A stretch of DNA of 54,952 nt, taken from assembly GCA_902825965.1 (NCBI GenBank), contig CADEDA010000001.1:426550-481501 (forward strand), given 5' to 3'. The translations under genes and the position numbers were made by a program. A model generated the notes under the pieces. It ran no database searches and was not told where the DNA came from. It worked only from the letters and a program-made list of their open reading frames with translations. Positions 5,428 to 54,386 of the stretch are shown one piece after another. How positions within the stretch are numbered: the stretch's first letter is position 1; each line of letters opens with the position of its first letter. This stretch comes from an uncultured Gemmatimonadota bacterium. Lineage in GTDB: Bacteria; Gemmatimonadota; Gemmatimonadetes; Gemmatimonadales; Gemmatimonadaceae.

Positions 5428-5912
5428 TCCTGCGCGCCGAGGACCCCGAGACGAGCCTCCGCGGCGAGGAGCACGAGTCGCTCCGCCTGTGGTTGCGCCT
5501 CTTCACCTGCACCACGATGGTGGAGCGCGAGGTGGACGGCATGCTCAAGCGTGCGTTCGGCTCGTCGCTCGCACGGTTCGACCTGCTGGCGCAGCTGCAT
5601 CGTGCGCCGGACGGACTGCGCATGACGACGCTGTCCGAACGCACGCTCACCACCAACGGCAACGTCACCTGGCTGGTGGCGGCGCTGCAGCGGGAGGGCC
5701 GCGTCTCGCGTCGCGTGGCCAGCGAGGACCGGCGCGCGGCCGTGGTGCGCCTCACCGCGAGCGGGCGCCGGCACTTCACCGCGATGGCCCGCGCGCACGA
5801 ATCACTCATCGAACGCCTGCTCCGACCCCTGGCGCCCAGCGAGCGCCAGACCATGTACACCCTGCTCGGCAGCGTGAAGCAGGGACTCCGCCATGTGAGG
5901 ACCGACCCGTGA
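5424..5912 (+). CDS. MarR-family regulator inside the anthranilate-type operon
   Basis: 162 aa. GTG start overlapping the SDR stop (GTGA). A winged-helix MarR core follows: [24 protein letters not shown] forms the first helices, [17 protein letters not shown] the recognition helix and [23 protein letters not shown] the wing. MarR proteins in aromatic-CoA operons usually repress and are released by the acyl-CoA or aromatic acid. Its position inside the operon implies autoregulation; the inverted repeat at 2208-2227 over the operon promoter is the likely target (inference). No membrane or other extra domain. Confidence 0.9.
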
Positions 5913-6775
5913 AGTCGACCGAGAAGCCCGGCACCCCCGACGCGATGTCCGCGATGCGCCGACCGATGGCCCAGCGCACGCCCCGGCACTTCGAGTGGCG
6001 CGTGGTGGACCACGGCCGCGTGGGCATCGTCACGCTTGCGCGGCCCGAGCGCAAGAACCCGCTGACGTTCGAGTCCTACGCCGAGCTGCGCGACCATTTC
6101 CGCGACCTCGTCTACGCCAGTGACGTGCGGGCGGTGGTGCTCACCGGTGCCGGCGGCAACTTCTGCTCCGGCGGCGACGTGTTCGAGATCATCGAACCGC
6201 TCACACGCATGGCGGTGCCGGAGCTCATGGCCTTCACCCGCATGACCGGGGATCTGGTGAAGGCGATGCGCGCCTGTCCACAGCCGATCATCGCCGCGGT
6301 GGACGGCATCGCGGCGGGTGCGGGTGCGATCCTCGCGATGGCGTCGGACCTGCGCTACGCGACGCCGCGCGCACGGACGGCCTTCCTGTTCACCAAGGTC
6401 GGGCTCGCCGGCTGCGACATGGGCGCCTGCGCGATGCTGCCGCGGCTCATCGGCCAGGGGCGTGCGGCCGAGCTGCTCTACACCGGGCGGATGATGGACG
6501 CCGCCGAAGGGGAGCGCTGGGGCTTCTACAACAGCGTGGTCGCACCCGAGATCCTGCTCGACGAGGCGACGAAGCTCGCCTCGACGCTCGCGCAGGGCCC
6601 GTCGTTCGCCCACGCGATGACCAAGACCATGTTGCAACAGGAGTGGAGCGTCTCGGTCGACCAGGCGATCGAGATGGAGGCCCAGGCCCAGGCCCTGTGC
6701 ATGGGCACCAAGGACTTCCGGCGTGCGTTCGAGGCCTTCGCCAGGAAGGCGGCGCCGCAGTTCGAGGGGGACTGA
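5909..6775 (+). CDS. Crotonase-family enoyl-CoA hydratase/ring-opening hydrolase
   Basis: 288 aa from the GTG that overlaps the MarR stop; an in-frame ATG at 5945 would drop 12 residues of a poorly conserved leader. Two oxyanion-hole segments are visible: [12 protein letters not shown] and [17 protein letters not shown]. The loop that normally carries a catalytic Glu reads AGCDMGA, so plain enoyl-CoA hydration is not certain. Crotonase members such as BadI open 2-oxocyclohexanecarboxyl-CoA rings, and a comparable ring-opening step is needed after the ACMR reaction, so a hydrolytic role is plausible (inference). Fifth-to-last gene of the operon; the acyl-CoA dehydrogenase follows directly. Confidence 0.88.
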
Positions 6776-6778
6776 GTG

Positions 6779-7978
6779 ATGACGGCGCATCTGGCCTGGC
6801 CGTTCTTCGACGACACTCACCGCACGCTGGCGCAGGCGGTCGACGCCTGGTGCGGCACTGCGGCCGCGCGGCCGGCCGGCACCGATGCCGCGCACGGCAG
6901 TGGGCGCGAGGCCAACGACGCGGCCTGTCGGGCCTGGGTGCGCGCACTCGGGGCGGCGGGCTTCCTGCGCCATTGCGTGCCGCAGGCGCAGGGCGGCGCG
7001 CGGGCGCAGCTCGACTCGCGCTCCCTCTGCCTCCTCCGCGAGCGGCTCGCGGGCCACGACGGACTCGCCGACTTCGCGTTCGCCATGCAGGGGTTGGGCT
7101 CCGGCGCCATCACGCTCGGCGGCAGCGACGCGATCCGGCAGGCGTGGTTGCCGCGCGTGGCCCGCGGTGAGGCGATCGCCGCCTTCGCCCTCTCGGAGCC
7201 GGAGGCAGGGTCGGACGCGGGGGCGCTGCGCATGCGCGCCGCGCGCGAGGGCGGGTCGTGGCGGCTCGACGGCACCAAGACCTGGATCTCCAACGGCGGG
7301 ATCGCCGACTTCTACTGCGTGTTCGCGCGCAGCGATGCGGCGAGCACGGGCGGCAAGGGCGTCACCGCGTTCCTGGTGCCCGCCGATTGCGCCGGCCTAC
7401 GCGTGCGGGAGCGCCTCGATGTCATCGCGCCCCATCCGCTCGCGACGCTCGAGTTCGACGGCTGCGTGGTGCCGGACACCCAGCGGCTCGGCGACGAGGG
7501 CAGCGGGTTCGGCCTCGCGATGCGGACGCTCGACATCTTCCGCACGTCGGTCGCGGCGGCGGCGGTGGGATTCGCGCGGGCGGCGCTCGCGGCGACCGTG
7601 ACCCAGGCGCAGTCGCGCGCGATGTTCGGCGCGACCCTCGGCCACCAGCCACTCGCGCAGGCGATCATCGGCGACATGGCCACCGACGTGGACGCGGCAG
7701 CGCTGCTCACCTACCGCGCCGCCTGGCACCGCGACACGCAGCCGGGACGCAGCACGACCGTCGCGGCCATGGCTAAACTCTCCGCGACGGAGCTCGCCCA
7801 GCAGGTGATCGACCGCGCGGTACAGCTGCACGGTGGCCGCGGTGTGCGGGTGGGAGAACGCGTCGAGCAGTGGTACCGCGACATCCGCGCGCTGCGCATC
7901 TACGAAGGGGCGACCGAGGTGCAGCGCCTGCTGATCGGCCGCGAGGTGCTCAAGGCCGCCTCCACCCCCTCCGCGTGA
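6779..7978 (+). CDS. Acyl-CoA dehydrogenase
   Basis: 399 aa FAD enzyme of the acyl-CoA dehydrogenase family. Visible blocks are the substrate/FAD-binding FALSEPEAGSD and WISNG segments, HQPLAQAIIGDMA, the QLHGGRGV loop and the C-terminal IYEGATEVQRLLIGR, whose Glu (about residue 376) is the family's usual catalytic base. It would introduce a 2,3-double bond into an acyl- or alicyclic-CoA intermediate. ATG at 6779 chosen; a GTG at 6776, immediately after the upstream stop, would add one residue. Ten nt separate it from the ligase gene. Confidence 0.93.
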   Translation: MTAHLAWPFFDDTHRTLAQAVDAWCGTAAARPAGTDAAHGSGREANDAACRAWVRALGAAGFLRHCVPQAQGGARAQLDSRSLCLLRERLAGHDGLADFAFAMQGLGSGAITLGGSDAIRQAWLPRVARGEAIAAFALSEPEAGSDAGALRMRAAREGGSWRLDGTKTWISNGGIADFYCVFARSDAASTGGKGVTAFLVPADCAGLRVRERLDVIAPHPLATLEFDGCVVPDTQRLGDEGSGFGLAMRTLDIFRTSVAAAAVGFARAALAATVTQAQSRAMFGATLGHQPLAQAIIGDMATDVDAAALLTYRAAWHRDTQPGRSTTVAAMAKLSATELAQQVIDRAVQLHGGRGVRVGERVEQWYRDIRALRIYEGATEVQRLLIGREVLKAASTPSA

Positions 7979-7988
7979 GGAGCGCGAC

Positions 7989-9635
7989 GTGACGACCATG
8001 TTCGAGAGCGCCAATCGCGACCCTTGGCCGCGCGAGCAACTCCCGCCGGCCGCCGAGTGGCCGCAGTTGCACCAGCGGCCGCCGTACGACTATCCCGCGC
8101 GGCTCAACTGCGTCTCGCGCCTGCTCGACGACGCCGTCGCGGAGGGGCGCGGTGGGCAGGTCGCGCTGGTGACCTCCGACGGCGCCGGCGGCTGGACGGA
8201 GACCACGTACGCCGCACTCGCGGCGCAGGTGGACGCGTTGGCGCAGGTGCTGGTGCAGGATCTCGGGTTGGTGCCGGGGAACCGCGTGCTGCTGCGCGGC
8301 TTCAACGGCCGCTGGCTGGCGGTGGCCTGGCTCGCGACGGTGAAGGCCGGTCTGGTCGCGGTGACCACCATGCCGTTGCTCCGCACCAAGGAGCTGCGGG
8401 TGATCATCGAGAAGGCCCGCTGCGTCGCGGCGCTCTGCGATGCGCGCCTGCTCGCCGAGCTCGAGACCGCGCTGGCGGCACCGACGACGATCGAGACCGT
8501 GCGCAGCTGGGGCAGCGGCGGCGCCGACGCGCTGGAATCCCTCATGGCCGCCAAGCGCGGCGCCTTCGCGCCCTGCCCCACGGCGAGCGACGACGTCTGT
8601 CTCATCGCGTTCACCTCGGGCACCACGGGGGAACCGAAGGGCTGCATGCATTTCCATCGCGACGTGATGGCGATGTGCGACGGGTTCTCCGCACAGGTGC
8701 TGCGCCTGGGCGCCGACGACCGCTGCATCGGCACGCCGCCGCTGGCCTTCACGTTCGGCTTGGGCGGCCTGCTCTGCTTCCCGCTGGCGGCGCGGGGCAG
8801 CGTGGTGCTGCTCGAGAAGGCCACGCCCGAGTCGCTGCTGGAGAGCATCGCGGCGACACGCGCCACGGTGAGCTTCACGGCGCCGACGTTCTACCGCGCG
8901 ATGGCACTCGCGATGCAGCAGGCACCGGCGCGCTTCGACACCACGTCGCTGCGCCAGTCGGTGAGCGCGGGCGAGGCATTGCCCGACGCCACGCGGACGC
9001 TGTGGCGCGACCGCACCGCGATCGAGATGCTCGACGGCATCGGTGCGACGGAGATGATCCACATCTTCATCGCGGCCGCCGGCGCGGCCGTGCGTCCGGG
9101 GGCGATCGGTCGCGCGGTACCGGGCTACGAGGTCGCGATCCTCGACGACGCGCTGCAACCGCTGCCGGCGGGGGCGATCGGCCGCCTGGCGGTGCGCGGG
9201 CCCACGGGTTGCCGCTACCTGGCCGACCGGCGTCAGCGCGACTACGTGCAGGCCGGCTGGAACCTCACCGGCGATGCCGCGATGATGGATGCCGACGGCT
9301 ACGTGTTCTTCAAGGCGCGCACCGACGACCTGATCCTCTCCTCGGGCTACAACATCGGCGCCCCCGAGGTCGAGTCGGCGGTGCTGCAGCACGCCGACGT
9401 GGCCGAGTGCGCGGTGGTGGGCGTGCCGGATCCCGACCGCGGGCAGGCGGTGAAGGCCTTCGTGGTGCTCAAGACCGGCGTCGCCGCGAGCGACGCGCTC
9501 GCGAAGTCCATCCAGGACTTCGTCAAGGCGACCATCGCACCGTACAAGTATCCGCGCGTGGTGGAGTTCGTGAGCGCACTGCCCAAGACCGACACCGGGA
9601 AGCTCCAGCGCTTCCGCCTCAAGGAGACGAGCTGA
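7989..9635 (+). CDS. Aryl-CoA ligase, probably 2-aminobenzoate--CoA ligase
   Basis: 548 aa member of the acyl-adenylate-forming superfamily, benzoate-CoA ligase branch. The ATP loop FTSGTTGEPKG is near residues 208-218, the YNIGAPEVE and TGDAAMMDADGY blocks follow, and the C-terminal adenylation lysine is K538 in TDTGKLQRF. It activates an aromatic acid with ATP and CoA; next to the ACMR fusion the substrate is most likely anthranilate, with benzoate or salicylate as alternatives. The GTG at 7989 is preferred over the ATG at 7998 because GAGGAG at 7977-7982 is 6 nt upstream. Its stop overlaps the next start (TGATG). Confidence 0.9.
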   Translation: MTTMFESANRDPWPREQLPPAAEWPQLHQRPPYDYPARLNCVSRLLDDAVAEGRGGQVALVTSDGAGGWTETTYAALAAQVDALAQVLVQDLGLVPGNRVLLRGFNGRWLAVAWLATVKAGLVAVTTMPLLRTKELRVIIEKARCVAALCDARLLAELETALAAPTTIETVRSWGSGGADALESLMAAKRGAFAPCPTASDDVCLIAFTSGTTGEPKGCMHFHRDVMAMCDGFSAQVLRLGADDRCIGTPPLAFTFGLGGLLCFPLAARGSVVLLEKATPESLLESIAATRATVSFTAPTFYRAMALAMQQAPARFDTTSLRQSVSAGEALPDATRTLWRDRTAIEMLDGIGATEMIHIFIAAAGAAVRPGAIGRAVPGYEVAILDDALQPLPAGAIGRLAVRGPTGCRYLADRRQRDYVQAGWNLTGDAAMMDADGYVFFKARTDDLILSSGYNIGAPEVESAVLQHADVAECAVVGVPDPDRGQAVKAFVVLKTGVAASDALAKSIQDFVKATIAPYKYPRVVEFVSALPKTDTGKLQRFRLKETS

Positions 9636-42162: not shown

Positions 42163-43442
42163 CACGCCGACTCGTGGCTCTTCGACGCCCACCAGCGGCC
42201 CACCCACGTGGCGAGCACCGCGAGCAGCAGGCCGACCGTCGACGCCACGGCCGACGGCTGCGTCTCCGTTGCCGCACCGACGAGCGCGAGCCCGACCACG
42301 ATCGCCGCCCACCAGAGCATCCGCGTGCGGTACTTGCCCGGCTCGCACTGATACGCGGCCGTGATCGCGAACGCCGCGAGCCCCATCACCAAGCCGGAGA
42401 ACCCCATGTTCGAGCGGTCGAGCCCCCACCCGGCGAGGAAGAGCAGCACACCCGCGGCGAGCACGGCGCCCACCCGCTGGGCCGCGACCCGCTTGTCCCC
42501 GGTCACCAGGCGACGGCCTTCGGGCGTGGTGAGCAGCAGCAGGTTCAGCAGCGGATCGGCCAGCCAGCTGAGCACCACGAACGCCACGTACGCGGCGAGC
42601 ACCGGATAGATCAGATAGCGCATGGACGGGTTGTCGCGCGCCACGCCGCGCAGGACCCGATACCCGAAGAGGCCGCCGAACACGATGAGCATCTGCGTGC
42701 CCGGCGTGAACGACTGCATCCAGAAGAAGAACCGCAGCAGCAGCCCGTAGCCGGGGTACCGCGCCTTGAGGGTGAGCAGCAGGCCCTCGCGCGCCCAATC
42801 GGCCCCGGGGTCCAGCGCCAAGGCATCGCGGAACTCCGCCTCGGCGTCGCCGCGGCGCCCGCCCCGCAGGAACGACCAGCCGCGACCGGCGCGCCCGAAC
42901 GCGTTGTGCGGGAAACGCTCGGCGAACGCGTCCCATTCCTTCTCCGACAGCCGCGCCCGCTCGCCCAGCGCGATCTGCGACGCGAGCAGCTTGAGCTGCG
43001 CTGCCTCCTCGTTGTCGGGATCGCCGGCCAGGATGTACTCGGCGCGCGCCTTCACCTCGTCCCAGCGCCCGAGCAACGCGCGCCCGCGTGCGTCGAGCAG
43101 GATGGCTGCTTCGTCGGACGGGTCCGCGTCGAGGATCTGCGCCGTGTACGCGAGCACCCGGTCCGGTTCGCGCAGCGCCAATGCCACGGTGGCCGCGACG
43201 ATCAGTGCGAAGCGCGGGTCCTCGTTGTCCGGCTGCGCGAGTGCCGCACGTACGTCCGCGTCGGCGTCGGCGAGGTGCTGCAGGTCGATGAGCATCCACG
43301 CGCGCAGCGCGAGCAGGAACCCCGAGTCGGGATAGTCCTCGCGCAGCGCGTCGAGTTCTTGGATCGCCCCCTCGATATCGCCGTCCTCGGCGAGGTCGAG
43401 GATCTGGCGGATCGGATCGGGCGAGACGGATTCTTCAGACAC
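42162..43442 (-). CDS. TPR-repeat membrane protein
   Basis: 426 aa. Residues 1-210 carry five or so tetratricopeptide-like helix pairs (AIQELDALREDYPDSGFLLALRAW and DAEAEFRDALALDPGADWAREG are clear). From about 215 there are five or six membrane helices (FFWMQSFTPGTQMLIVFGGLF, LIYPVLAAYVAFVVLSWL and others). The TPR part should face the cytoplasm. Function unknown; perhaps a scaffold. GTG start overlapping the DDAH 3' end by 8 nt, so it is translated with DDAH. Confidence 0.87.
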   Translation of the reverse strand: MSEESVSPDPIRQILDLAEDGDIEGAIQELDALREDYPDSGFLLALRAWMLIDLQHLADADADVRAALAQPDNEDPRFALIVAATVALALREPDRVLAYTAQILDADPSDEAAILLDARGRALLGRWDEVKARAEYILAGDPDNEEAAQLKLLASQIALGERARLSEKEWDAFAERFPHNAFGRAGRGWSFLRGGRRGDAEAEFRDALALDPGADWAREGLLLTLKARYPGYGLLLRFFFWMQSFTPGTQMLIVFGGLFGYRVLRGVARDNPSMRYLIYPVLAAYVAFVVLSWLADPLLNLLLLTTPEGRRLVTGDKRVAAQRVGAVLAAGVLLFLAGWGLDRSNMGFSGLVMGLAAFAITAAYQCEPGKYRTRMLWWAAIVVGLALVGAATETQPSAVASTVGLLLAVLATWVGRWWASKSHESA

Positions 43443-44229
43443 GGGACGGCGCGGTGAGCGTGAGGAGCAAGGAGCAGCAGGTCACCGCCCCCTCGGCCTT
43501 GGCGAGTTCGTCCGCCGGTACCGGATGCACCTGATACCCACGGGCTCCCAACAAAGTACACGTCTGCACGTGCTCGGCGGACATGACCAGTGCGGTCCCG
43601 ATGCGCAGCACGTTGGCGGCCGCCGGTTCGTCCGGGGCGATGCGGACCGTGCGGAGCGGCGCGAAGTCCGCCGGGTCCACCCACTCCGGGTTCAGCAGCA
43701 CCGTGTCGTCGTTGAGGGCGGTGGCCGCACTCTTGAGGTGCAGGCAGCCGGTGACCGCGACCGGGACGACCTCGTAGCCGTGCATCGCGAGCAACCCCGC
43801 GAGTTGCGCGATGCCCGCCTCGTTGCTGCGCGGCGTGCGGCCCACGAAGACCCGCCGCCCGACCACACACACGTCGCCGCCGTCCAGCGTGCCCGGGGCG
43901 CGGATCTCCGCGAGCGGCCGATGTGCCACGAGTGCCGCGCGCACGGCCGGCAGCTCACCACGGCGCGAAGCGGCGCCGGGTCGCGTGAGCACCGCGAGTT
44001 CATCGAACACCACGGCCGTGTCCTCGATGAACACGCTGTCGGGATGCGCGGGCGCGGGGGCGACCCGCTCGACGCGGACGCCGATCGTGCGCAGCAGCGC
44101 CTCATACGCGGCGTGCTGCTGCTCGGCGCGCGCGACATCGATTGGCGTGCGCGCGAGGTGCGTGAGCTCGCACTCGACGATGCGCGGCGAGACGGCCCGG
44201 GTGAGGGCGAGCAGGGTCGGCGTGGTCAT
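43435..44229 (-). CDS. Dimethylarginine dimethylaminohydrolase (DDAH)-like amidinohydrolase
   Basis: 264 aa, the length of bacterial DDAH. The amidinotransferase-superfamily catalytic set is present: DSVFIEDTAVV (Asp/Glu), GCLHLKSA (His) and the nucleophile in EGAVTCCSLLL (Cys251). DDAH converts N-methylated arginines to citrulline plus mono- or dimethylamine; related arginine deiminases give ammonia instead. It lies 9 nt downstream of the IclR gene and overlaps the TPR gene, so it is co-transcribed with the regulator that faces the aminotransferase/Fe-S flavoprotein operon. Dimethylamine would be a plausible substrate for that flavoprotein (inference). Confidence 0.88.
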   Translation of the reverse strand: MTTPTLLALTRAVSPRIVECELTHLARTPIDVARAEQQHAAYEALLRTIGVRVERVAPAPAHPDSVFIEDTAVVFDELAVLTRPGAASRRGELPAVRAALVAHRPLAEIRAPGTLDGGDVCVVGRRVFVGRTPRSNEAGIAQLAGLLAMHGYEVVPVAVTGCLHLKSAATALNDDTVLLNPEWVDPADFAPLRTVRIAPDEPAAANVLRIGTALVMSAEHVQTCTLLGARGYQVHPVPADELAKAEGAVTCCSLLLTLTAPSRV

Positions 44230-44238
44230 GGGCCGGTG

Positions 44239-45099
44239 CTAGCGTGGCGTGCGGGACGTGGGGCGCGCCTCGACCCGCACGGCGGGCCGCGAGGCGGGGT
44301 TGGCCGCGAGCCAGGCCGTCATGACCTGTGAGGCGGTCGCGCGGAGGGCGGGCAGGATGGTGCGCTGCACGCGCTCGCGCGCATCGGCGCGGAACGGCAT
44401 GCCCACGTTGAGCGCCGCCACGGTGACGCCGGCGCCATCGCGGATGGGGACCGAGATCGAACAGAGTCCGATCTCGAGCTCCTGCTCGACATAGGCGTAC
44501 CCCTCGGCCCGCACCTGCCGGATGATGCGCTCCAGCGCGTCGCGGTCGGTCACCGTGTACGGCGTGATGGCCGCGAACCTGCGCCCGGCGAGCCAGGCGT
44601 GCAGCGCGGCATCATCGAGTCCGCCCAGCAGCACGCGACCCATGGACGCACAGAACGCCGGCAGCCGCGCCCCGACGCCGAGCGCCACGGTCATCACCTT
44701 GCGCACGGTGATGCGCTGCACGTAGACGATGTCGCGCCCGTCGAGTACGGCGAGCGAGCAGCTCTCGCCGACGTGGTCTGCCAGCGCGCGCATGAACGGG
44801 TGGGCGAGTTCGGGCAGCGTGAGCGAGGCGAGGTAGCGGTAGCCGAGGTCGAGCACGCGCGGCGTGAGATGGAAGCGGCGGTCACGACGCGCCACGTAGC
44901 CCAGGTGCTCGAGTGTGTGCAGCAGGCGTCGCACGACGGCGCGGGCGAGTCCGACGTGGTCGGCCAGCTCCGAGAGGGTCATCTCGGGGCGGTCGCGGTC
45001 GAAGGCGCGGATGACGTCGAGTCCGCGCGAGAGGGTCTGGACGAAGTCGGGGCTGTCCTCGAACCGGGCCTGTCCCGGCAGGGCGGAGCGCGTGGGCAT
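44239..45099 (-). CDS. IclR-family regulator (PcaR/PobR-like branch)
   Basis: 286 aa. N-terminal winged helix (VQTLSRGLDVIRAFDRDRPEMTLSELADHVGLARAVVRRLLHTLEHLGYV) and C-terminal IclR effector domain (SCSLAVLDGRDIVYVQRI, LPAFCASMGRVLL, YAYVEQELEIGLCSISVPIRD). Such regulators control catabolic operons and are often both activators and self-repressors. ATG at 45099; a TTGCGA-N17-TAGGAT promoter 7 nt before it overlaps the palindrome at 45128-45142, so autorepression is predicted. DDAH follows after 9 nt. Confidence 0.93.
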   Translation of the reverse strand: MPTRSALPGQARFEDSPDFVQTLSRGLDVIRAFDRDRPEMTLSELADHVGLARAVVRRLLHTLEHLGYVARRDRRFHLTPRVLDLGYRYLASLTLPELAHPFMRALADHVGESCSLAVLDGRDIVYVQRITVRKVMTVALGVGARLPAFCASMGRVLLGGLDDAALHAWLAGRRFAAITPYTVTDRDALERIIRQVRAEGYAYVEQELEIGLCSISVPIRDGAGVTVAALNVGMPFRADARERVQRTILPALRATASQVMTAWLAANPASRPAVRVEARPTSRTPR

Positions 45100-45106
45100 G
45101 GCGGCA

Positions 45107-45135
45107 ATCCTAGCCCCGGCCTCCGGGGTTCGCAA
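45107..45135 (-). promoter_or_regulatory. Promoter of the iclR/DDAH operon
   Basis: On the minus strand: TTGCGA -35 (45130-45135), 17-nt spacer, TAGGAT -10 (45107-45112), 7 nt before the IclR ATG, so a leaderless or near-leaderless transcript. The -35 lies inside the GTTCGC-AAT-GCGAAC palindrome. Confidence 0.6.
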
Positions 45136-45142
45136 TGCGAAC
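45128..45142. promoter_or_regulatory. IclR operator: perfect palindrome
   Basis: GTTCGC-AAT-GCGAAC in the 85-bp gap between the divergent iclR and aminotransferase genes, of the form recognised by IclR-family proteins (GTTCG half-sites in PcaR/PobR-type sites). It covers the iclR -35 and is centred about 50 bp upstream of the aminotransferase start, a position suited to activation of that operon. Confidence 0.7.
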
Positions 45143-45172
45143 GCTCGTGCGCGGGACGAACGGGACGACCGA

Positions 45173-45178
45173 TATTCT
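45173..45178 (+). promoter_or_regulatory. Candidate leaderless promoter of the aminotransferase operon (-10 TATTCT)
   Basis: TATTCT ends 6 nt before the ATG at 45185. The -35 position (45150-45155, CGCGGG) does not match consensus, which would fit a promoter that depends on an activator such as the divergent IclR protein. Confidence 0.5.
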
Positions 45179-45184
45179 ATATCA

Positions 45185-46510
45185 ATGGCGACGCGCCCCG
45201 AACGCGACACGGTGCTCCACTCCTGGACCGTCCAGGCCCGATGGGACGCACCGACCGTCGTCGGCGCCAGCGGTGCCTACTTCGTCCTCGCCGATGGACG
45301 CCGGATCCTCGACTTCTCGAGTCAGTCCGAGTGCTCCAACCTCGGCCACCAGCATCCGGCGGTCGTCGCCGCCATCAAGGCCCAGGCTGACCGGCTCTGC
45401 TACATCGCCAACGCCTGGGGCGCCGAGCCGCGCGCCGCACTCGCGGACCGCCTGCTCGAGCGCAGCGGATTCCAAGGCGGACGCGTCTTCTTCACGCTCG
45501 GCGGTGCCGACGCGAACGAACATGCCGTGAAGTTCGCGCGCCTCGCCCGCGGCCTGCCCCTCGGCCGCGTGTTCACGCGCGATCGCTCCTACCATGGCGC
45601 GACCTATGCCACCATGGCGCTCTCCGGCGACGCCCGCAGCGGCGACGCCGCACGCCCCGCCGCGTACGGCGTCGAGCATGTCCCGCCGCCCTACGCGTAC
45701 CGCTGCCCCTGGGACAGCCGCGACGCCGAGGACTGCGGGCGCCGCGCGGCGGAGTACGTCACGCAGCGCATCAAGGCGCACGGCGCGGCGCAGGTTGCCG
45801 CAGTGCTCATGGAGCCGAATGCCGGCACCAACGGCATCGTCGCGCCGGACTCGTACTGGCCCGCCTTGCGCGCGGGCACCCGGGCGCACGGTGTGCTGCT
45901 CATCGCGGACGAGGTGATGAGCGGATTCGGGCGCTGCGGCGAATGGTTCGCCTGGCAGCGGTACGGCGACGCCGGTCGTCCGGACGTGATGACGCTGGCC
46001 AAGGGACTCACCGGCGCGCACCTGCCGCTCGGGGCGGTGGTGCTCTCGGCCGAGGTCGCGGCGGCGCTCGAGCACGAGATGCTCCAGACAGGGCTCACGT
46101 ACTGCGGACATCCCTTGTCCTGCGCCGCCGGCCTTGCCGCGGTGGAGGCGTACGCGGCTGAGGATCTCATCACCCGCTCGCGGACGCTGGGGCGCGAGAT
46201 GTTCACGACGCTGCAACTGCTGCAGGAGCGGCATCGCGTGATCGGGGAGGTGCGCGGCGGGCATGGCCTGTTCGCGGTGGTGGAGCTCGTGCGCGACCGC
46301 GCGACGCGCGAACCGCTGGCACCCTGGCCGCAGCTGGCGCCGGCCCTCGCCGCCCTGCTCCGCGATGCGCTGGACGCCGGCGTCTCGCTCGCCGCGCGCG
46401 GGAACTTGCTCCTGCTCGCGCCGCCGCTCATCATCGAGGAGCGGGCGCTCGCGGACACGCTCGGCCTGCTCGACCGCCTGCTCGCGCGCCACTTCCCCTC
46501 CCGGTCCTGA
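45185..46510 (+). CDS. Class III aminotransferase, first of the IclR-linked operon
   Basis: 441 aa PLP enzyme, omega-aminotransferase fold. Visible: FFTLGGADANEHAVKFAR (phosphate/PLP loop), RDRSYHGATYATMALSGD, AVLMEPNAGTNG, LIADEVMSGFGRCG (PLP-pairing Asp) and TLAKGLTGAHLPLGAV with the Schiff-base Lys. Overall it resembles taurine/beta-alanine:pyruvate and alanine-glyoxylate 2-type transaminases, but the substrate cannot be read from sequence. Gap of 7 nt to the ALDH homologue. The start is probably leaderless. Confidence 0.92.
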   Translation: MATRPERDTVLHSWTVQARWDAPTVVGASGAYFVLADGRRILDFSSQSECSNLGHQHPAVVAAIKAQADRLCYIANAWGAEPRAALADRLLERSGFQGGRVFFTLGGADANEHAVKFARLARGLPLGRVFTRDRSYHGATYATMALSGDARSGDAARPAAYGVEHVPPPYAYRCPWDSRDAEDCGRRAAEYVTQRIKAHGAAQVAAVLMEPNAGTNGIVAPDSYWPALRAGTRAHGVLLIADEVMSGFGRCGEWFAWQRYGDAGRPDVMTLAKGLTGAHLPLGAVVLSAEVAAALEHEMLQTGLTYCGHPLSCAAGLAAVEAYAAEDLITRSRTLGREMFTTLQLLQERHRVIGEVRGGHGLFAVVELVRDRATREPLAPWPQLAPALAALLRDALDAGVSLAARGNLLLLAPPLIIEERALADTLGLLDRLLARHFPSRS

Positions 46511-46517
46511 GGCTCCC

Positions 46518-48086
46518 ATGAGCGTCTCCCGGCTCTACTCGTCGTTGATCGACCTGCCCGAGGCGCGGCACGTGGAGTTCGACGCGGCGCTGGCCCGGAT
46601 GAAGGAGCGGATGGGCGAGACGCATGCGCTGCACATCGGCGGCGGCGACATCCTCTCGCGCCACGCACGCGCCAAGCACTCGCCGATCGACCGTGGCCTG
46701 GTGCTCGGGCACTTCGGTGCCGCCACGGAGCATGAGGTGCACCTCGCGATGGCCGCGGCCGCCGGAGCGTATCCCTGGTGGCGCCGCACGCCGGCGACGG
46801 AACGCATCGCCCTGCTGCGTCGCGTCGCGGCGCTCATCGAGGAGCGGCGTGCGGACTTCGCGGCGGTGCTCTCCATGGAAGTCGGGAAGAACCGCGCCGA
46901 GGCCCTCGGCGAGGCGCACGAGGCGGCGGAGTTCTTCTCGACGTACTGCGACGAGTGGGAGCGCAACGACGGTGTGCTGTACGACCTCCCCAGCGGACCG
47001 TCGCTCGGCGCGCACACGCACAGCCGGCGCGTGCTCAAGCCCTACGGCCCGTGGGTGGTGCTCGCCTCCTTCAACTTCCCGCTCGCGTTGCTGGCCGGCC
47101 CGAGTGCGGCGGCCCTGCTCGCCGGCAACACGGTGGTGGCGAAGGGTGCGGTCGACACGCCGTGGAGCGGACGATTGCTCGCGGACGTGTTCCGCGACGC
47201 GGGCGCACCGCCGGGCGTGTTCAACTACCTGAGTGGGGCCTCCGGCGACATGGGCGACGCGCTGCTGCAGCATCCATCGCTCGGCGGCCTCACCATCACC
47301 GCGTCGCAGGGCACCGGCCTGGAGATCATGCGCAAGGTCGGCGGTGCGGCGCACCTGCGGCCCTGCGTCGCGGAACTGGGCGGCCTGAACGCCTGTGTGG
47401 TCACCGCCAACGCGGACGTCGAGCGCGCCGTGATGGGCATCCTGCACTCCGCGTTCGGGATGTCGGGCCAGAAGCATTCCTCGCTCTCGCACCTCTATGT
47501 GCACGGCACCGTCGCGCAGCGGGTGGTCGACCTCCTGGTGAGCCGCATCAAGCTCATGCCGATCGGCGATCCCACCAAGCGCGGCAACTACCTCGGGCCG
47601 GTGACCAAGTCGAGCTCCTATTCGGACTACCGCACCTTCATCCATGAGCTGCGCGAACACGGGTCGCACGTGCTCGTGGGCGGCGAGGTGTTGACCGAGC
47701 GGGGACTGGGCCACGGCCAGTTCGTGGCGCCCACGCTGGCGGAGGCGCCACTCGGGCACCCGCTCTGGAAGACGGAGATGTTCCTGCCGATCCTGCTCGT
47801 GCACCGCGTGCCCTCGCTCGAGGACGCGACCCAGCTCATGAACGCGCAGCCGTCAGGCCTCACGGCCGGCATCTACGGCGACAAGGAGGAGGTCGCCTGG
47901 TTCTTCGAGCACGTGGATGCGGGCCTCGTGTACGCCAACCGCCAGCTGGGCTCCGCGTCCGGGACCTGGCCGGGCTACCACCCGATCAGCGGCTGGAAGG
48001 ATTCCGACGCGTCGGGCAAGACGATGGGCCCGTTCAACTACCTGGCGCAGTACCTCCGCGAGCAGTCGCAGACCTCGGTCGAGTGA
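46518..48086 (+). CDS. Aldehyde dehydrogenase homologue with catalytic Cys replaced by His
   Basis: 522 aa, P5C-dehydrogenase/PaaN-like ALDH fold. NAD-site features are kept: SFNFPLALLAG (oxyanion Asn), NTVVAKGAVDTPWSG (Lys) and VAELGGLNACVV (general-base Glu). But the nucleophile motif that reads GQKCSA in relatives is GQKHSS; His320 is encoded by CAT at 47475-47477, two base changes from a Cys codon. The protein is otherwise full length and uninterrupted, so it is not an obvious pseudogene. It may bind aldehyde/NAD non-covalently, catalyse another reaction, or be structural. Between the aminotransferase and CoA-transferase genes; the stop overlaps the next GTG by 4 nt. Confidence 0.9.
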   Translation: MSVSRLYSSLIDLPEARHVEFDAALARMKERMGETHALHIGGGDILSRHARAKHSPIDRGLVLGHFGAATEHEVHLAMAAAAGAYPWWRRTPATERIALLRRVAALIEERRADFAAVLSMEVGKNRAEALGEAHEAAEFFSTYCDEWERNDGVLYDLPSGPSLGAHTHSRRVLKPYGPWVVLASFNFPLALLAGPSAAALLAGNTVVAKGAVDTPWSGRLLADVFRDAGAPPGVFNYLSGASGDMGDALLQHPSLGGLTITASQGTGLEIMRKVGGAAHLRPCVAELGGLNACVVTANADVERAVMGILHSAFGMSGQKHSSLSHLYVHGTVAQRVVDLLVSRIKLMPIGDPTKRGNYLGPVTKSSSYSDYRTFIHELREHGSHVLVGGEVLTERGLGHGQFVAPTLAEAPLGHPLWKTEMFLPILLVHRVPSLEDATQLMNAQPSGLTAGIYGDKEEVAWFFEHVDAGLVYANRQLGSASGTWPGYHPISGWKDSDASGKTMGPFNYLAQYLREQSQTSVE

Positions 48087-48937
48087 GGCCGCCGCTCCTC
48101 TCCCTCCGTGAGGCCATCGCGACCCATGTCCGGGACGGGGCGCAGGTCGCGCTCGAGGGATTCACGCACCTCATCCCGTTCGCCGCCGGGCACGAGATCA
48201 TCCGGCAGCGCCGTCGTGACCTCACGCTGCTGCGGATGACCCCGGACCTCATCTACGACCAGATGATCGGCATGGGTTGCGCCCGCGCGCTGGTGTTCTC
48301 CTGGGGCGGCAATCCCGGCGTCGGCTCGCTGCACCGCCTGCGCGACGCGGTGGAGCACGGCTGGCCGCACACGCTCGAGCTCGACGAGCAGACGCACGCC
48401 GCCATGGCCGCGCGCTACTGCGCCGGCGCCAGCGGCCTGCCGTTCGCGGTGCTGCGCGCCGCGACCGACACCGACCTGCGCCGCGCGAACACCGCTCACA
48501 GCGCCGCGGTCGCCTGCCCCTTCACCGGCGAGATCCTCACCGCCGTGCGCGCGCTCACGCCCGACGTGACCATCCTCCACGCGCAACGGGCGGACCACGA
48601 CGGCAACGTCCTCATGGAGGGCATCGTGGGCGCGAGCCGCGAGGCCGCACTCGCCGCGCGTACGCTGCTCGTCACCGTGGAGGAGATCGTGCCCGCACTC
48701 GGCGCTGGTCCCAACGCGTACGTGATCCCGGGATGGCAGATCGCCGCGATCGCCCACGTCCCCGGCGGCGCCTACCCCTCGTACGCGCTCGGGCACTACG
48801 AACGCGACAACCGCTTCTACCAGGACTGGGACGGCATCGCACGCACACGCGACTCCTTCCTCGCCTGGATGACGCAGCACGTGCTCGGCAGCGCCGACCA
48901 CGCCGCGTTCCTGCGCAGCCTCGGGGTGGCCGCGTGA
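48083..48937 (+). CDS. CoA-transferase subunit A (glutaconate/3-oxoadipate type)
   Basis: 284 aa. Strong family blocks: EGFTHLIPFAAGHEIIRQ, LLRMTPDLIYDQMIGMGCARALVFSWGGNPGVGSLHRLRDAVEHGWPHTLE (the CatI/glutaconate CoA-transferase A signature) and HAQRADHDGNVLMEGIVG. With the next gene it forms an alpha2beta2 enzyme moving CoA between carboxylic acids. IpdA-type ring hydrolases share this fold, so hydrolysis is an alternative. GTG start overlapping the ALDH-homologue stop; the stop overlaps subunit B. Confidence 0.92.
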   Translation: MRPPLLSLREAIATHVRDGAQVALEGFTHLIPFAAGHEIIRQRRRDLTLLRMTPDLIYDQMIGMGCARALVFSWGGNPGVGSLHRLRDAVEHGWPHTLELDEQTHAAMAARYCAGASGLPFAVLRAATDTDLRRANTAHSAAVACPFTGEILTAVRALTPDVTILHAQRADHDGNVLMEGIVGASREAALAARTLLVTVEEIVPALGAGPNAYVIPGWQIAAIAHVPGGAYPSYALGHYERDNRFYQDWDGIARTRDSFLAWMTQHVLGSADHAAFLRSLGVAA

Positions 48938-49683
48938 CCGCACCGGCCTACAGCGCCGACGAGATGATGACGGTCGCCGCGGCGCGGCGCCTGCGCGACG
49001 GGGCGGTGTGCTTCGTCGGCATCGGACTCCCCAGCGCGGCCTGCAACCTGGCCCGCCTCACCCACGCGCCGGACCTCGTGCTCATCTACGAGTCCGGCAC
49101 CGTCGGCACGCGACCCACGGTGCTGCCGCTCTCCATCGGTGACGGCGAGCTCGCGAGCACGGCGACCAGCGTGATCCCGCTGCCGGAGATCTTCGCACAC
49201 TACCTCCAACGCGGCCGCGTCGATGTCGGCTTCCTCGGTGCGGCCCAACTCGACCGCCTCGGCCGGCTGAACAGCACTGCCATCGGCCCCTATGCCAAGC
49301 CCAGCGTGCGGCTGCCGGGGTCGGGCGGTGCGCCCGAGATCGGTGCCGCCGCGCGCGAGGTGTTCGTGGTGATGAAGCAGAGCGCCCGGACCTTCGTCGA
49401 GCGCCTCGACTTCGTGACGACGCGGGCGCGCCCGGCCGCCGTCATCACCGACCTCGGCGTGCTCGAGCCCGATCCGCACTCGCGGGAACTCCGCGTCTGC
49501 GCCACCTTCGCGGGCGTGACGGTGGACCAGATGCGCGCCGAATGCGGTTGGCCGTTGCAGGCCGCAGCCACGGTGCAGCGCATCACCCCGCCGACGGACC
49601 ATGAACTCGAGGTCCTGCGGGCCCTCGGGGCGCGCACCGCCGCCGCGCACGGTCGCCCCGTCCGCATCTCCCTCCCCACCTGA
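48934..49683 (+). CDS. CoA-transferase subunit B (glutaconate/3-oxoadipate type)
   Basis: 249 aa. The likely catalytic Glu53 lies in LIYESGTVG, the position of the glutamyl-CoA residue in glutaconate CoA-transferase. FVGIGLPSAACNLA at the N-terminus and VDVGFLGAAQLDRLGRLNSTAIG are typical. Retention of the Glu favours true CoA transfer over the hydrolase activity of IpdB-like relatives. GTG start with 4-nt overlap to subunit A. It implies that the pathway passes through a free carboxylic acid that needs activation. Confidence 0.92.
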   Translation: MTAPAYSADEMMTVAAARRLRDGAVCFVGIGLPSAACNLARLTHAPDLVLIYESGTVGTRPTVLPLSIGDGELASTATSVIPLPEIFAHYLQRGRVDVGFLGAAQLDRLGRLNSTAIGPYAKPSVRLPGSGGAPEIGAAAREVFVVMKQSARTFVERLDFVTTRARPAAVITDLGVLEPDPHSRELRVCATFAGVTVDQMRAECGWPLQAAATVQRITPPTDHELEVLRALGARTAAAHGRPVRISLPT

Positions 49684-49690
49684 TCCACCC

Positions 49691-51013
49691 ATGCCCACGC
49701 CGCACCGCAAGACCGCGCTGCCCGGCCCCAACGCGCTGGCGATGATCGCCCGCGACGCCGCGGTCATCTCGCCCTCGTATCCGCGCGACTACCCGTTCGT
49801 GATGTCGCACGGGCGCGGCGCCGAGGTGTGGGACGTGGACGGGAACCGCTTCCTGGATTTCGCGGCGGGGATCGCGGTCTGCGCCACCGGCCACGCACAC
49901 CCCGAGGTGGTCCGTGCGATCACCGAGGCCGCGCAGGGGTTCCTGCATATCTCCAGCGACTACTGGCACGAGCGCCAGGTGCGGCTGGGCGAGCGCATCC
50001 GCGACCTCAAGCCGATGGGCGATGTCCCGGTGCTCAGCTTCATGTGCCAGAGCGGCACCGAGAGCGTGGAGGGTGCGCTCAAGCTCGCGCGCTACGTCAC
50101 CGGGCGGCAGCGCTTCATCGGATTCCTCGGCGGGTTCCATGGACGCACCATGGGCGCGCTGGCCTTCACCTCGAGCAAGTACACGCAGCAGGCAGGGTTC
50201 TTCCCGACCATGCCCGGCGTCACGCACGTGCCGTATCCCAACAACTACCGACCGATCTTCGCGGGCGCGGACCAGGGCCAGGCGGTGCTCGACTACATCG
50301 AGCACGTGCTCTTCCAGCACAACGTCCCGGCCCGGGAGGTCGCGGGGATCCTCGTGGAACCCGTGCAGGGCGAAGGCGGATACCTCGTGCCGCCCGCCGG
50401 CTTCCTCGAGGGCCTGCGGGCCCTCTGCGACCGGCATGGCATCCTGCTGATCTTCGACGAGGTGCAATCCGGCGTGGGACGCACCGGCCGGATGTTCGCG
50501 GCCCACCACACGGGCGTGGTGCCCGACATCATGACCCTCGCCAAGGGCCTCGGCAGCGGCATGCCGATCGGCCTGGTCGTCGCGCAGAAGCGGCACATGG
50601 AGCTGTGGAAGCGCGGTGCCCACGGCAACACCTACGGCGGCAACCCGGTGTGCTGCGCCGCGGCCATCGCCACGCTCGACCTCGTGGAGCGCGAGTACAT
50701 GGCGAACGCGGCGAGCGTCGGGCAGTACTTCATGGAGCGCTTGCGCGAATGGCAGCAGCGCCGGCCGCAGATCGGCGAGGTCCGTGGGCTGGGCCTGATG
50801 ATCGGACTCGAACTCGTGCAGGGCGCGGGCGACCGCACCCCGGCACGCGAGCTCTGCGATGCCCTCATCACGCGTGCGTACCACAACGGGCTCCTGCTGC
50901 TCTCCTGCGGCGTGAGCACCGTGCGCTTCATGCCCCCGCTGCTCATCACACGTGCCGACGTGGACGAGGCGATGGCGATCCTCGACCAGAGCCTCACCGA
51001 GGCCCTGCGATGA
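49691..51013 (+). CDS. Class III aminotransferase (GABA/ornithine type)
   Basis: 440 aa. Visible: DGNRFLDFAAGIAVCATGHAHP, QSGTESVEGALKLAR (PLP phosphate), GGFHGRTMGAL, VEPVQGEGGYLVPP, FDEVQSGVGRTG (Asp) and TLAKGLGSGMPIGLV (Lys). Closest in style to 4-aminobutyrate and archaeal-type ornithine aminotransferases, so a distal (omega or delta) amino group is a likely target. Together with the first aminotransferase it suggests removal of two different amino groups from one substrate. The stop overlaps the permease start (ATGA). Confidence 0.92.
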   Translation: MPTPHRKTALPGPNALAMIARDAAVISPSYPRDYPFVMSHGRGAEVWDVDGNRFLDFAAGIAVCATGHAHPEVVRAITEAAQGFLHISSDYWHERQVRLGERIRDLKPMGDVPVLSFMCQSGTESVEGALKLARYVTGRQRFIGFLGGFHGRTMGALAFTSSKYTQQAGFFPTMPGVTHVPYPNNYRPIFAGADQGQAVLDYIEHVLFQHNVPAREVAGILVEPVQGEGGYLVPPAGFLEGLRALCDRHGILLIFDEVQSGVGRTGRMFAAHHTGVVPDIMTLAKGLGSGMPIGLVVAQKRHMELWKRGAHGNTYGGNPVCCAAAIATLDLVEREYMANAASVGQYFMERLREWQQRRPQIGEVRGLGLMIGLELVQGAGDRTPARELCDALITRAYHNGLLLLSCGVSTVRFMPPLLITRADVDEAMAILDQSLTEALR

Positions 51014-52329
51014 CCGGACGCCGCCGACGGTTCGGCTTCTGGACCGCGACCGCCCTCGTGGTGGGCAACATCATCGGTGCGGCGATCTTCATGCAGCCCG
51101 CGTCGCTGGCGCCGTACGGGTGGAACGCCATCACCGCGTGGCTCATCAGCCTCGCCGGGGCCCTCTGCCTCGCGTGGGTCTTCGCGCGGCTCGCCGCGAC
51201 CTTCCCCGATGCCGGCGGCGCCCACGGCTTCATGGAACTCGGGGTGGGGGAAGGCGCGGCCTTCCTCGGCTCCTGGGGATACCTCGTCTCGGTCTGGGCG
51301 GCGAACGCCGCCATCACCATCACCGGCGTCAACTACCTCACGCGGCTCCTCCCGGCCTTGCGCACCGTGCCCGGCGCCGAGCCCGCTGCGGCGCTGCTCG
51401 TCATCGCGCTCATCACGTGGGGCAACCTCCGCGCGATGGGCGGCCAGGTCCAGCTCGTCTCCTCGGTGATCAAGCTGCTGCCGTTCACCGCCGTCATCGC
51501 CCTCGCGGCCTGGGTGCTGCTGCGCGACGGCACCGCCGCGCTCGCGCCCATCGACGCCGTGCCGCTGAGCGCCGCCACCACGCTCTCGGCCATCGGCATC
51601 ACCTTCTACGCGATGCTCGGCCTCGAGAGCGCCGCGATGCCGGCCGACGCGGTGGAGGATCCCGAGCGCACGGTCCCGCGCGCGACGATGGTCGGCACCA
51701 CCCTGAGCGGGGTCGTGACGATCTTCTCCACCTGCGCCGTCGCACTCATGATGCCGATGGAGGTCGTCTCGCAGTCCAAGGCGCCCGTCGCCGACTTCAT
51801 CGGGGGCTTCTGGGGCAACGGTGCCAGCCTCTTCGTCGCGTTCTGCGGCGTGGTCAGCTGCTTCGGTTGCCTCAACGGCTGGATCCTCATCGGCGGCGAG
51901 CTGCCGTCGGCGATGTGCTCGCGCGGGGCGCTCCCGTCCTGGTTCGGCGTGCGCAACCGTTTCGGGGTGCCGGCCCGTGCCCTGGTGCTCGGCGCACTCA
52001 TCACCAGCGTGCTGGTGCTGGCCGCGAGTTCGCGCGTGGGCGTGGCCGCGTTCAACTTCGCGGCCCTCATCGCGACCGCGACCAACCTCGTGCTCTACCT
52101 CCTCTGCACGCTCGCGGCCATCCGCTTCATGCGCGACGGGCGCCTCGCGCGCACGCCGGGATTGGTACTCTGCAGCCTCGGCGCGCTGGTGTTCGCCCTC
52201 TACGCGTTCTACGGCAGCGGCCGGGAGCCGTTGCTCTGGGGCCTGGCGCTCCTCGCCCTCGGCTGGCCGCTGCGCCACGTCGCGCGACGGGCCGCCGCCC
52301 GTGCCCGCCTGGTCACCCACGGGGCCTGA
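51010..52329 (+). CDS. APC-family amino acid permease (AdiC/PotE-like)
   Basis: 439 aa, about 12 membrane helices. The N-terminal helix GNIIGAAIFMQPASLAPYG matches the substrate-binding GxG(I/A)IF motif of the AdiC/PotE basic amino acid/polyamine antiporter branch; GITFYAMLGLESAAMPADAVEDPERTVPRA is the helix-6 block with the usual Glu. It probably imports the operon's amino acid or amine substrate. The AdiC-like branch favours arginine, ornithine or related cations, consistent with, but not proof of, a guanidino substrate. Confidence 0.92.
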   Translation: MTGRRRRFGFWTATALVVGNIIGAAIFMQPASLAPYGWNAITAWLISLAGALCLAWVFARLAATFPDAGGAHGFMELGVGEGAAFLGSWGYLVSVWAANAAITITGVNYLTRLLPALRTVPGAEPAAALLVIALITWGNLRAMGGQVQLVSSVIKLLPFTAVIALAAWVLLRDGTAALAPIDAVPLSAATTLSAIGITFYAMLGLESAAMPADAVEDPERTVPRATMVGTTLSGVVTIFSTCAVALMMPMEVVSQSKAPVADFIGGFWGNGASLFVAFCGVVSCFGCLNGWILIGGELPSAMCSRGALPSWFGVRNRFGVPARALVLGALITSVLVLAASSRVGVAAFNFAALIATATNLVLYLLCTLAAIRFMRDGRLARTPGLVLCSLGALVFALYAFYGSGREPLLWGLALLALGWPLRHVARRAAARARLVTHGA

Positions 52330-52331
52330 CG

Positions 52332-54386
52332 GTGCGCGACCCGCGCTACGACGTGCTCTTCGAGCAGGTGCGCATCGGGCCGGTCACGGCGCGCAACCGC
52401 TTCTTCCAGGTGCCGCACTGCAACGGCATGGGACACCAGATGCCGGCCGCACACGCCGCGATGCGCGAGGTGAAGGCGGAGGGCGGCTGGGCCGTCGTGT
52501 CCACCGAGGAGTGCGAGATCCATCCCAGCGGCGACGTGACGCCGTATGTCGAGGCGCGCCTCTGGGACGACGCCGACATCCCGGCCCTCGCGCTGATGTG
52601 CGACGCGGTCCATCGCCATGGCGCGCTCGCTGCCGTGGAGCTCACGCACAACGGGCCCACCGCCAGCAACCTCTACTCGCGCGAGGTCGCGCTGGCGCCG
52701 TCGCACCAGCCGCTCAAGTACGGCTATCCGCACCAGGCGCGTGCGATGACCAAGGCGGACATCCGCGACTACCGGCGGTGGCATCGTGACGCGGCCCTGC
52801 GCGGCCGCCGGGCGGGGTTCGACCTCATCTACGTCTACGCCGGGCACGACCTGTCGCTCGCGATGCACTTCCTGCAGCGGCGGCGCAACCACCGCAGCGA
52901 TGAGTACGGCGGCAGCCTCGAGAACCGCGTGCGCCTCTTCCGCGAGATCATCGAGGATACCAAGGAGGCCGTGGGCGACCACTGCGGCGTGGTCGTCCGT
53001 TTCGCGGTCGAGGAGCTGCTCGGCGATGCAGGCGTGACCGTCGCCGAGGCGCAGGAGGTCGTGCACATGCTCGGCGAGCTCCCCGACCTCTGGGACGTGA
53101 ACATCGCCGCCTGGTACAACGATTCCATCCCTTCGCGCTTCGCCCGCGAGGGCGCGCAGGAGCCCTTCACGCACTGGGTGAAGCGGTACACGTCCAAGCC
53201 GGTCGTCGGCGTCGGCCGCTTCACCTCGCCCGACACGATGGTCGACCAGGTCCGCCGCGGCGTGCTCGACATGATCGGTGCGGCCCGACCGAGCATCGCG
53301 GACCCCTTCCTGCCGCACAAGATCGAGACCGGCCGTCTCGACGAGATCCGCGAGTGCATCGGGTGCAACATCTGCGTCACGGGCGACATGACGATGACGC
53401 CGATCCGTTGCACGCAGAACCCGTCGATGGGCGAGGAGTGGCGGAAGGGCTGGCACCCCGAGCGCATCGCGCCCGCACGGACGCGGGAACGTGTGCTCGT
53501 CGTCGGCGCAGGCCCGGCCGGGCTCGAGGCCGCTCGGGCGCTCGGCCAGCGCGGCGTGGAGGTCCACCTCTCCGAGGCGACGCGCGAACTCGGTGGGCGC
53601 GTGAGCCGCGAAGCGCGCCTGCCGGGACTGGCCGAGTGGGGGCGCGTGCGCGACTGGCGCGTGGGCCGCATCGAGGCGATGCCGAACGTCACCGTGTACC
53701 GCGAGTCGCCGATCAGCGCCGACGAGGTGCTGGAGTTCGGTGCCGCGCACGTCGCCGTCGCCACCGGCTGCCACTGGCGCCGCGACGGATACGGGCGGAC
53801 GAACGGCGACGGCATCCCCGGCTTCGGCACGGACACACACACCCCCGACGACCTGCTCGACGGCCGGGTCCCCACCGGACACGTGGCGATCTTCGACGAC
53901 GAGTCCTTCTACCTCTCGAGCGTGTTGGCCGAACTGGTGGTCCGCGCGGGCGGACGGGTGAGCATCATCACGCCCGAGGAGACGGTCGCCTCGTGGAGCA
54001 CGAACACGCTCGACTACCGGCACATCCAGGCCCGGCTCCACTCCCTCGGCGTCACACAGGTCGTCGCCCACAACGTGCGCGCCGCCGCACCCGGGCATCT
54101 GCGCCTCGTGCACGTCTGGTCGGGCGCTGAGCGGGAGCTCGGCTGCGATGCGGTGGTGAGCATCACCGCGCGGCTCCCGGACGACGCGCTGCACGGCGCG
54201 CTGCTCGCGCGGGAGGCGGAGTGGGCGGCGGCCGGCCTGCGCTCGGTGCGCTGCATCGGCGACGCCCACGCCCCGGGGCTCATCGCCCACGCGGTGTACG
54301 CGGGCCACCGCTACGCCCAGGAGTTCGGCGAGCCCGCGCGCGGGGACGTACCGTTCCGGCGGCATCTGCCCGTCGCGCAGGGCTGA
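52332..54386 (+). CDS. Trimethylamine/dimethylglycine dehydrogenase-like Fe-S flavoprotein
   Basis: 684 aa, like DgcA and slightly shorter than trimethylamine dehydrogenase. Residues 1-350 form the FMN barrel; Cys in NRFFQVPHCNGMG lines up with the covalent 6-S-cysteinyl-FMN Cys of trimethylamine dehydrogenase. A [4Fe-4S] cluster motif follows (CIGCNIC...CTQNPSMGEEWRKGWHPE, near 340-375), then an FAD/ADP-binding Rossmann domain from VLVVGAGPAGLEAARALG (near 390). The family oxidatively N-demethylates methylamines or N,N-dimethylglycine, giving formaldehyde and passing electrons to ETF. The substrate here is unknown. GTG start 2 nt after the permease stop. Confidence 0.9.
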   Translation: MRDPRYDVLFEQVRIGPVTARNRFFQVPHCNGMGHQMPAAHAAMREVKAEGGWAVVSTEECEIHPSGDVTPYVEARLWDDADIPALALMCDAVHRHGALAAVELTHNGPTASNLYSREVALAPSHQPLKYGYPHQARAMTKADIRDYRRWHRDAALRGRRAGFDLIYVYAGHDLSLAMHFLQRRRNHRSDEYGGSLENRVRLFREIIEDTKEAVGDHCGVVVRFAVEELLGDAGVTVAEAQEVVHMLGELPDLWDVNIAAWYNDSIPSRFAREGAQEPFTHWVKRYTSKPVVGVGRFTSPDTMVDQVRRGVLDMIGAARPSIADPFLPHKIETGRLDEIRECIGCNICVTGDMTMTPIRCTQNPSMGEEWRKGWHPERIAPARTRERVLVVGAGPAGLEAARALGQRGVEVHLSEATRELGGRVSREARLPGLAEWGRVRDWRVGRIEAMPNVTVYRESPISADEVLEFGAAHVAVATGCHWRRDGYGRTNGDGIPGFGTDTHTPDDLLDGRVPTGHVAIFDDESFYLSSVLAELVVRAGGRVSIITPEETVASWSTNTLDYRHIQARLHSLGVTQVVAHNVRAAAPGHLRLVHVWSGAERELGCDAVVSITARLPDDALHGALLAREAEWAAAGLRSVRCIGDAHAPGLIAHAVYAGHRYAQEFGEPARGDVPFRRHLPVAQG

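Follow-up and report, generated by a model that had tools for sequence, protein, structure and literature searches.

An aldehyde dehydrogenase homologue with histidine at the catalytic cysteine position in two Gemmatimonadaceae species

The operon and its His-type ALDH gene

The window, i.e. the whole 54,952-nucleotide stretch of DNA that was analysed, carries an operon in which one gene encodes a homologue of aldehyde dehydrogenases (ALDH) with histidine in place of the catalytic cysteine. The features of the locus are as follows.

43435 to 44229, minus strand: dimethylargininase (DDAH)-like amidinohydrolase, a conserved neighbour of the IclR gene
44239 to 45210, minus strand: IclR-family regulator (PcaR/PcaU-like), divergent from the operon
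45185 to 46510, plus strand: class III aminotransferase (AT1); closest solved relative, taurine:2-oxoglutarate aminotransferase (6jix)
46518 to 48086, plus strand: ALDH-superfamily protein, His-type; 522 aa, one open frame on translation
47475 to 47477, plus strand: codon CAT for His320, at the catalytic Cys position according to translation and alignment
48083 to 48937, plus strand: CoA-transferase subunit A (CtfA); closest solved relative, glutaconate CoA-transferase (1poi)
48934 to 49683, plus strand: CoA-transferase subunit B (CtfB), by homology
49691 to 51013, plus strand: class III aminotransferase (AT2), PRK05769-like
51010 to 52329, plus strand: APC-family amino acid/polyamine permease, for which, of the genomes compared, only the other His-type one has a close orthologue
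52326 to 54386, plus strand: histamine/trimethylamine dehydrogenase-like flavoprotein (OYE family, CIGCNIC motif)

The operon thus reads AT1, ALDH(His), CtfA, CtfB, AT2, APC permease and amine dehydrogenase-like flavoprotein, with the IclR and DDAH genes divergent from it. The product of the last gene matches histamine dehydrogenase (3k30) with 816 bits and is also related to trimethylamine dehydrogenase; its VPHCNGMG segment aligns with the VPHC segment of these enzymes. Together, the flavoprotein, the DDAH-like protein and the permease suggest the catabolism of an amine or of a methylated arginine derivative.

The ALDH frame (translation of 46518-48086, plus strand) reads ...SAFGMSGQKHSSLSHLYV... 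and was described in a preliminary account of this DNA as open and translationally coupled. This proved correct: its ATG follows the AT1 stop at 46510 by 7 bases, and its own stop codon (48084-48086) overlaps the GTG of CtfA (48083). Translation and alignment also confirmed the replacement of the catalytic Cys reported there, the protein having GQKHSS where its relatives have GQKCSA. By fold and homology it belongs to the ALDH superfamily. The Pfam Aldedh domain (PF00171) gives a single, full-length match over residues 53-514 (E=3.4e-104), and the AlphaFold2 model adopts the ALDH fold (pLDDT 84.7, with a low-confidence loop at residues 481-504, pLDDT <50). In a Foldseek search with this model, structures of P5C dehydrogenase (P5CDH) came on top, with a TM-score of 0.88 to 3qan. 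The P5C dehydrogenases 3qan and 1uzb were likewise the top PDB matches by sequence, and His320 aligns with the Cys of their GQKCSA motif. No near paralogue is present in the same genome, where the next ALDH is only 31% identical; takeover of the function by a nearby paralogue is thereby ruled out. Should oxidation of the operon's aldehyde take place at all, it would presumably fall to another ALDH encoded in the genome.

Distribution of the Cys-to-His change

The change is also present in a second Gemmatimonadaceae metagenome-assembled genome (MAG; L038, JADYYN010000096.1) from the same genus, whose protein is 76% identical and likewise has GQKHSS, but with His encoded by CAC. This MAG appears in our genome sets as G395 and, via its locus, as G491; two further hits (L048 and L051) fall at the same place and were counted as the same genome. 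The catalytic Cys of competent ALDHs (Cys302 of ALDH2) is therefore His320 in the proteins of both species. In the alignment, the same column holds Cys in all 38 Cys-type relatives that cover the site, and also in the split gene of genome G492. Searches of 288 genomes of the order, 394 sampled genomes of the class, GTDB contigs and IMG/VR revealed His-type members in these two species only, the contig scan relying on short exact peptide patterns that more distant His-type proteins may escape.

The preliminary description had proposed that homologues carrying Cys in the same context would point to a local mutation or an error. Such homologues do exist. The locus of GEM1 (L039), from the same genus, has the order IclR/DDAH, ALDH(Cys), CtfA, CtfB, AT2 and amine dehydrogenase, and that of G492, which is split over two contigs (L047 and L065) with the break inside the ALDH gene, has IclR/DDAH, AT1, ALDH(Cys), CtfA, CtfB, AT2 and amine dehydrogenase. 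These Cys-type homologues are what would be expected if the Cys codon had been misread in sequencing or had mutated in this genome alone, but the conclusion drawn from them does not hold, since a separate MAG has His through a different codon, about 20 further near-invariant sites are altered along with it, and the genes are under purifying selection (see below). The second species refutes this explanation, which retains practically no probability.

The locus of the second MAG (4266-8955) has the same left flank as the window region 43435-54386, while its operon is reduced to ALDH(His) and the permease, the five other genes of the window operon being missing. No aminotransferase lies beside the His-ALDH at this locus, and the genome, which is 83% complete, has no close amine dehydrogenase (best 27%) or CtfA (best 34%). 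The permeases of the two His-type genomes are 76% identical, whereas the Cys-type genomes G197 and G492 have no close orthologue (29-32% at best). With two genomes on each side, it is suggestive that the His-ALDH persists where the catabolic genes of its locus are lost and that it accompanies the permease, because these are the two operon genes that the second MAG keeps and because the Cys-type genomes have no close permease. The earlier proposal that the protein serves the transaminases as a structural partner loses weight: a dedicated role of this kind is disfavoured by a genome that retains the His-ALDH with no transaminase at the locus.

Other genomes of the class (L015-L035 and L050) have Cys-type ALDHs of lower identity, about 41-45%, beside two class III aminotransferases, followed in some by a CtfA homologue; judging from these loci, ALDH and two class III aminotransferases form what appears to be a widespread operon. 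In Chloroflexi/Anaerolineae (L042-L044), Cys-type relatives are followed directly by CtfA and CtfB homologues (45-51%), without aminotransferases or amine dehydrogenase. A contig labelled Rubrivivax (L040, 2670-4235) encodes a Cys-type ALDH that is 76% identical to that of GEM1, without the operon; this contig reflects either horizontal transfer or mis-binning.

Remodelling of the active site and selection on the gene

The oxyanion Asn, the Lys192-type Lys and the general-base Glu, expected in a competent ALDH, are retained as N186, K209 and E286, as the preliminary description had stated. The cofactor Glu399-type residue (E420) is also present, and the NAD-site residues S263 and F422 are unchanged. 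The active site is not otherwise intact. Among the 123 columns with at least 95% invariance, 20 are changed in both His proteins. Near-invariant positions that differ include N169S, P184S, G262A, K290L, C320H, A322S, R325H, A483T, Q488H, F490I, G495D, G497D and S498A. The changed columns are clustered along the sequence (permutation p=0.0013) and are enriched within 10 residues of catalytic or cofactor anchors (odds ratio 4.5, p=0.005), narrower windows giving weaker support (p about 0.04-0.05). We rely on these boundary-free and anchor-based tests rather than on a clustering by motif segments (p=3.7e-6) whose boundaries were set after the data had been seen. From the structures of ALDH4/P5CDH, we take residues 479-483 to be the substrate anchor loop and F490 to be an aromatic residue of the substrate pocket, so that the pocket is probably altered as well as the nucleophile. 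No Cys has been gained in common by the His clade, which rules out a migrated nucleophile.

The tree places the two His proteins together as one clade next to the Cys-type orthologues, with a stem of 0.66 substitutions per site and tips of 0.14 and 0.24. Between the window and GEM1, identity is 57% for the ALDH as against 84% for AT2, 79% for the OYE-family flavoprotein and 76% for CtfB; between GEM1 and G492, the Cys-type ALDHs share 85-90% identity. The stem, long compared with the tips, and the identity of the ALDH, lower than that of its neighbours, show that the His lineage changed rapidly for a time and then became stable.

The two His genes have no stops and differ by a dN of 0.14. Their dN/dS is far below 1 by pairwise codon likelihood, dS being saturated and the exact ratio therefore not meaningful, and the likelihood ratio against omega=1 is 443. 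Columns conserved across the Cys-type relatives differ between the two His proteins at 17 of 141 positions, compared with 109 of 362 elsewhere (p=2e-5), and the two His-ALDHs are about as similar to each other as the products of the adjacent DDAH, IclR and permease genes are. The pair is thus under strong purifying selection. This bears on the idea that function was lost in the common ancestor and that a pseudogene is slowly eroding. The long, accelerated stem and the loss of the adjoining catabolic genes in the second MAG would fit such decay, but frames that stay open at saturated synonymous divergence with dN/dS far below 1, conserved columns that are still protected and an interspecies divergence like that of neighbouring genes disfavour it. 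Decay is already largely refuted by these selection results and seems very unlikely. As far as sequences can tell, the protein shows what is expected of a pseudoenzyme, in that an essential catalytic residue is lost although the protein is selectively maintained.

Possible roles and relation to known ALDHs

Taken together, these features are best explained, with fairly good probability for the explanation as a whole, by a lineage-specific ALDH that is kept by selection and has lost thiol-dependent aldehyde oxidation. The His-ALDH would derive from the Cys-type enzyme of an amine-catabolism operon in Gemmatimonadota. With the thiol the thiohemiacetal step would be removed, while NAD(P) and/or a semialdehyde or amine metabolite of the pathway may still be bound non-covalently. 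Its role would be other than that of a dehydrogenase, more likely that of a binding or regulatory pseudoenzyme and less likely that of a His/Glu acid-base catalyst, and it would work together with the permease and the IclR/DDAH pair, not with the transaminases. Since the nucleophile is gone from an intact and constrained gene, the protein probably no longer oxidises aldehydes and has changed its role; the preliminary claim that ALDH chemistry is lost without Cys is supported to this extent. A changed chemistry of the kinds named there (hydratase, carrier or hydride transfer to an imine) is conceivable. A pseudoenzyme or an enzyme of changed acid-base chemistry is the simplest reading of the thiol loss, and sequence cannot separate the two. 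The explanation is drawn from two sequences of one genus. The window gene is still coupled within a full catabolic operon, which is a point against it. The retained Asn, Lys and Glu could also be read as a sign of continuing catalysis; they carry little weight, about 84% of invariant columns being kept anyway.

The enzymatic branch of this explanation supposes that His320 and Glu286, perhaps with H325, H488, D495 and D497 as a possible metal site, support non-covalent catalysis such as aldehyde or imine hydration, or imine reduction or hydrolysis. It is a possible but unlikely reading. The new His and Asp residues at near-invariant positions are kept in both species, the NAD-site residues and the Asn, Lys and Glu are retained, and constraint is strong. 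However, the model gives no structural proof that the new residues sit together, the 481-504 loop being poorly predicted, the presence of all five new residues in both sequences carries no statistical significance when these are 76% identical, and the literature searched holds no precedent. That the ALDH fold has become a non-covalent catalyst in which His320, Glu286 and the gained His and Asp residues drive another reaction on the semialdehyde or imine of the operon is accordingly rather doubtful; if true, nature would here have exchanged a thiol for an imidazole in a protein that can still be recognised as an ALDH. A residual dehydrogenase is less probable still. Here the substrate oxidised would be the hydrated aldehyde: His320 or Glu286 would act as the general base, and the hydride would pass directly to NAD(P). 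The retained Asn, Lys, Glu and NAD-contact residues and the unchanged operon position in the window agree with this, but the changes in the substrate-anchor loop, Phe490 and the Gly of FTGS imply that the pocket that places the aldehyde is altered, and Cys is present in every catalytically active ALDH structure reviewed (PMC8160307). The selection-kept protein without thiol-dependent oxidation remains our preferred reading.

ALDHs without the catalytic Cys have rarely been documented. The thiohemiacetal step through the Cys thiol is described for the catalytically active enzymes (PMC8160307). Human ALDH16A1 lacks the whole catalytic triad and has been termed a pseudoenzyme (PMC10650815); human ALDH16, lacking the catalytic Cys, is reported to have no activity, and a function as a binding protein has been proposed for it (PMC8160307). 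It shares with the window protein an ALDH fold without this Cys (PMC10650815, PMC8160307). ALDH16 has an additional C-terminal ALDH-like domain and has lost the triad, whereas the window protein is single-domain (Aldedh at 53-514 of 522 aa), without such an addition, and keeps Asn and Glu. In GRM1 microcompartment loci, one of two AldDHs has Ser or Pro for Cys, and a scaffolding or regulatory role was suggested for it (PMC4207490). Like the window protein, it is bacterial, operon-encoded and has its catalytic Cys replaced (PMC4207490); it differs in having Ser or Pro and an active AldDH in the same locus, the window protein having His and being the sole ALDH of its operon. Cys-less ALDHs are thus already known, and replacement of Cys by His in an operon's sole ALDH has no direct precedent in the literature searched, on limited evidence.

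Compared with P5C dehydrogenase (L-glutamate gamma-semialdehyde dehydrogenase, PRK03137/TIGR01237; 3qan, 1uzb), the window protein has the same full-length ALDH fold at about 29-30% identity, but its nucleophile Cys is His, the conserved Phe490 is Ile and the anchor loop is rewritten. Its NCBIfam scores lie well below the family cut-offs (302.3 versus 648 bits for NF002852 and 274.3 versus 659.65 for TIGR01237). A homologue without the catalytic Cys is also a caution that the family name alone does not justify assigning aldehyde oxidation to an operon. The Cys-type ALDHs of GEM1 and G492 are nearer, at 55-59% identity and in a common locus, with IclR and DDAH divergent and CtfA, CtfB, AT2 and amine dehydrogenase downstream. 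Unlike the window protein, these ALDHs and that of L040 keep Cys at position 320 and the other near-invariant residues, and unlike the window operon, the Cys-type operons have no APC permease. Since a congeneric species (GEM1) has a Cys-type orthologue at the same locus, with 57% identity, direct comparison of the two can be used to test what the changes brought about and what the new role is.
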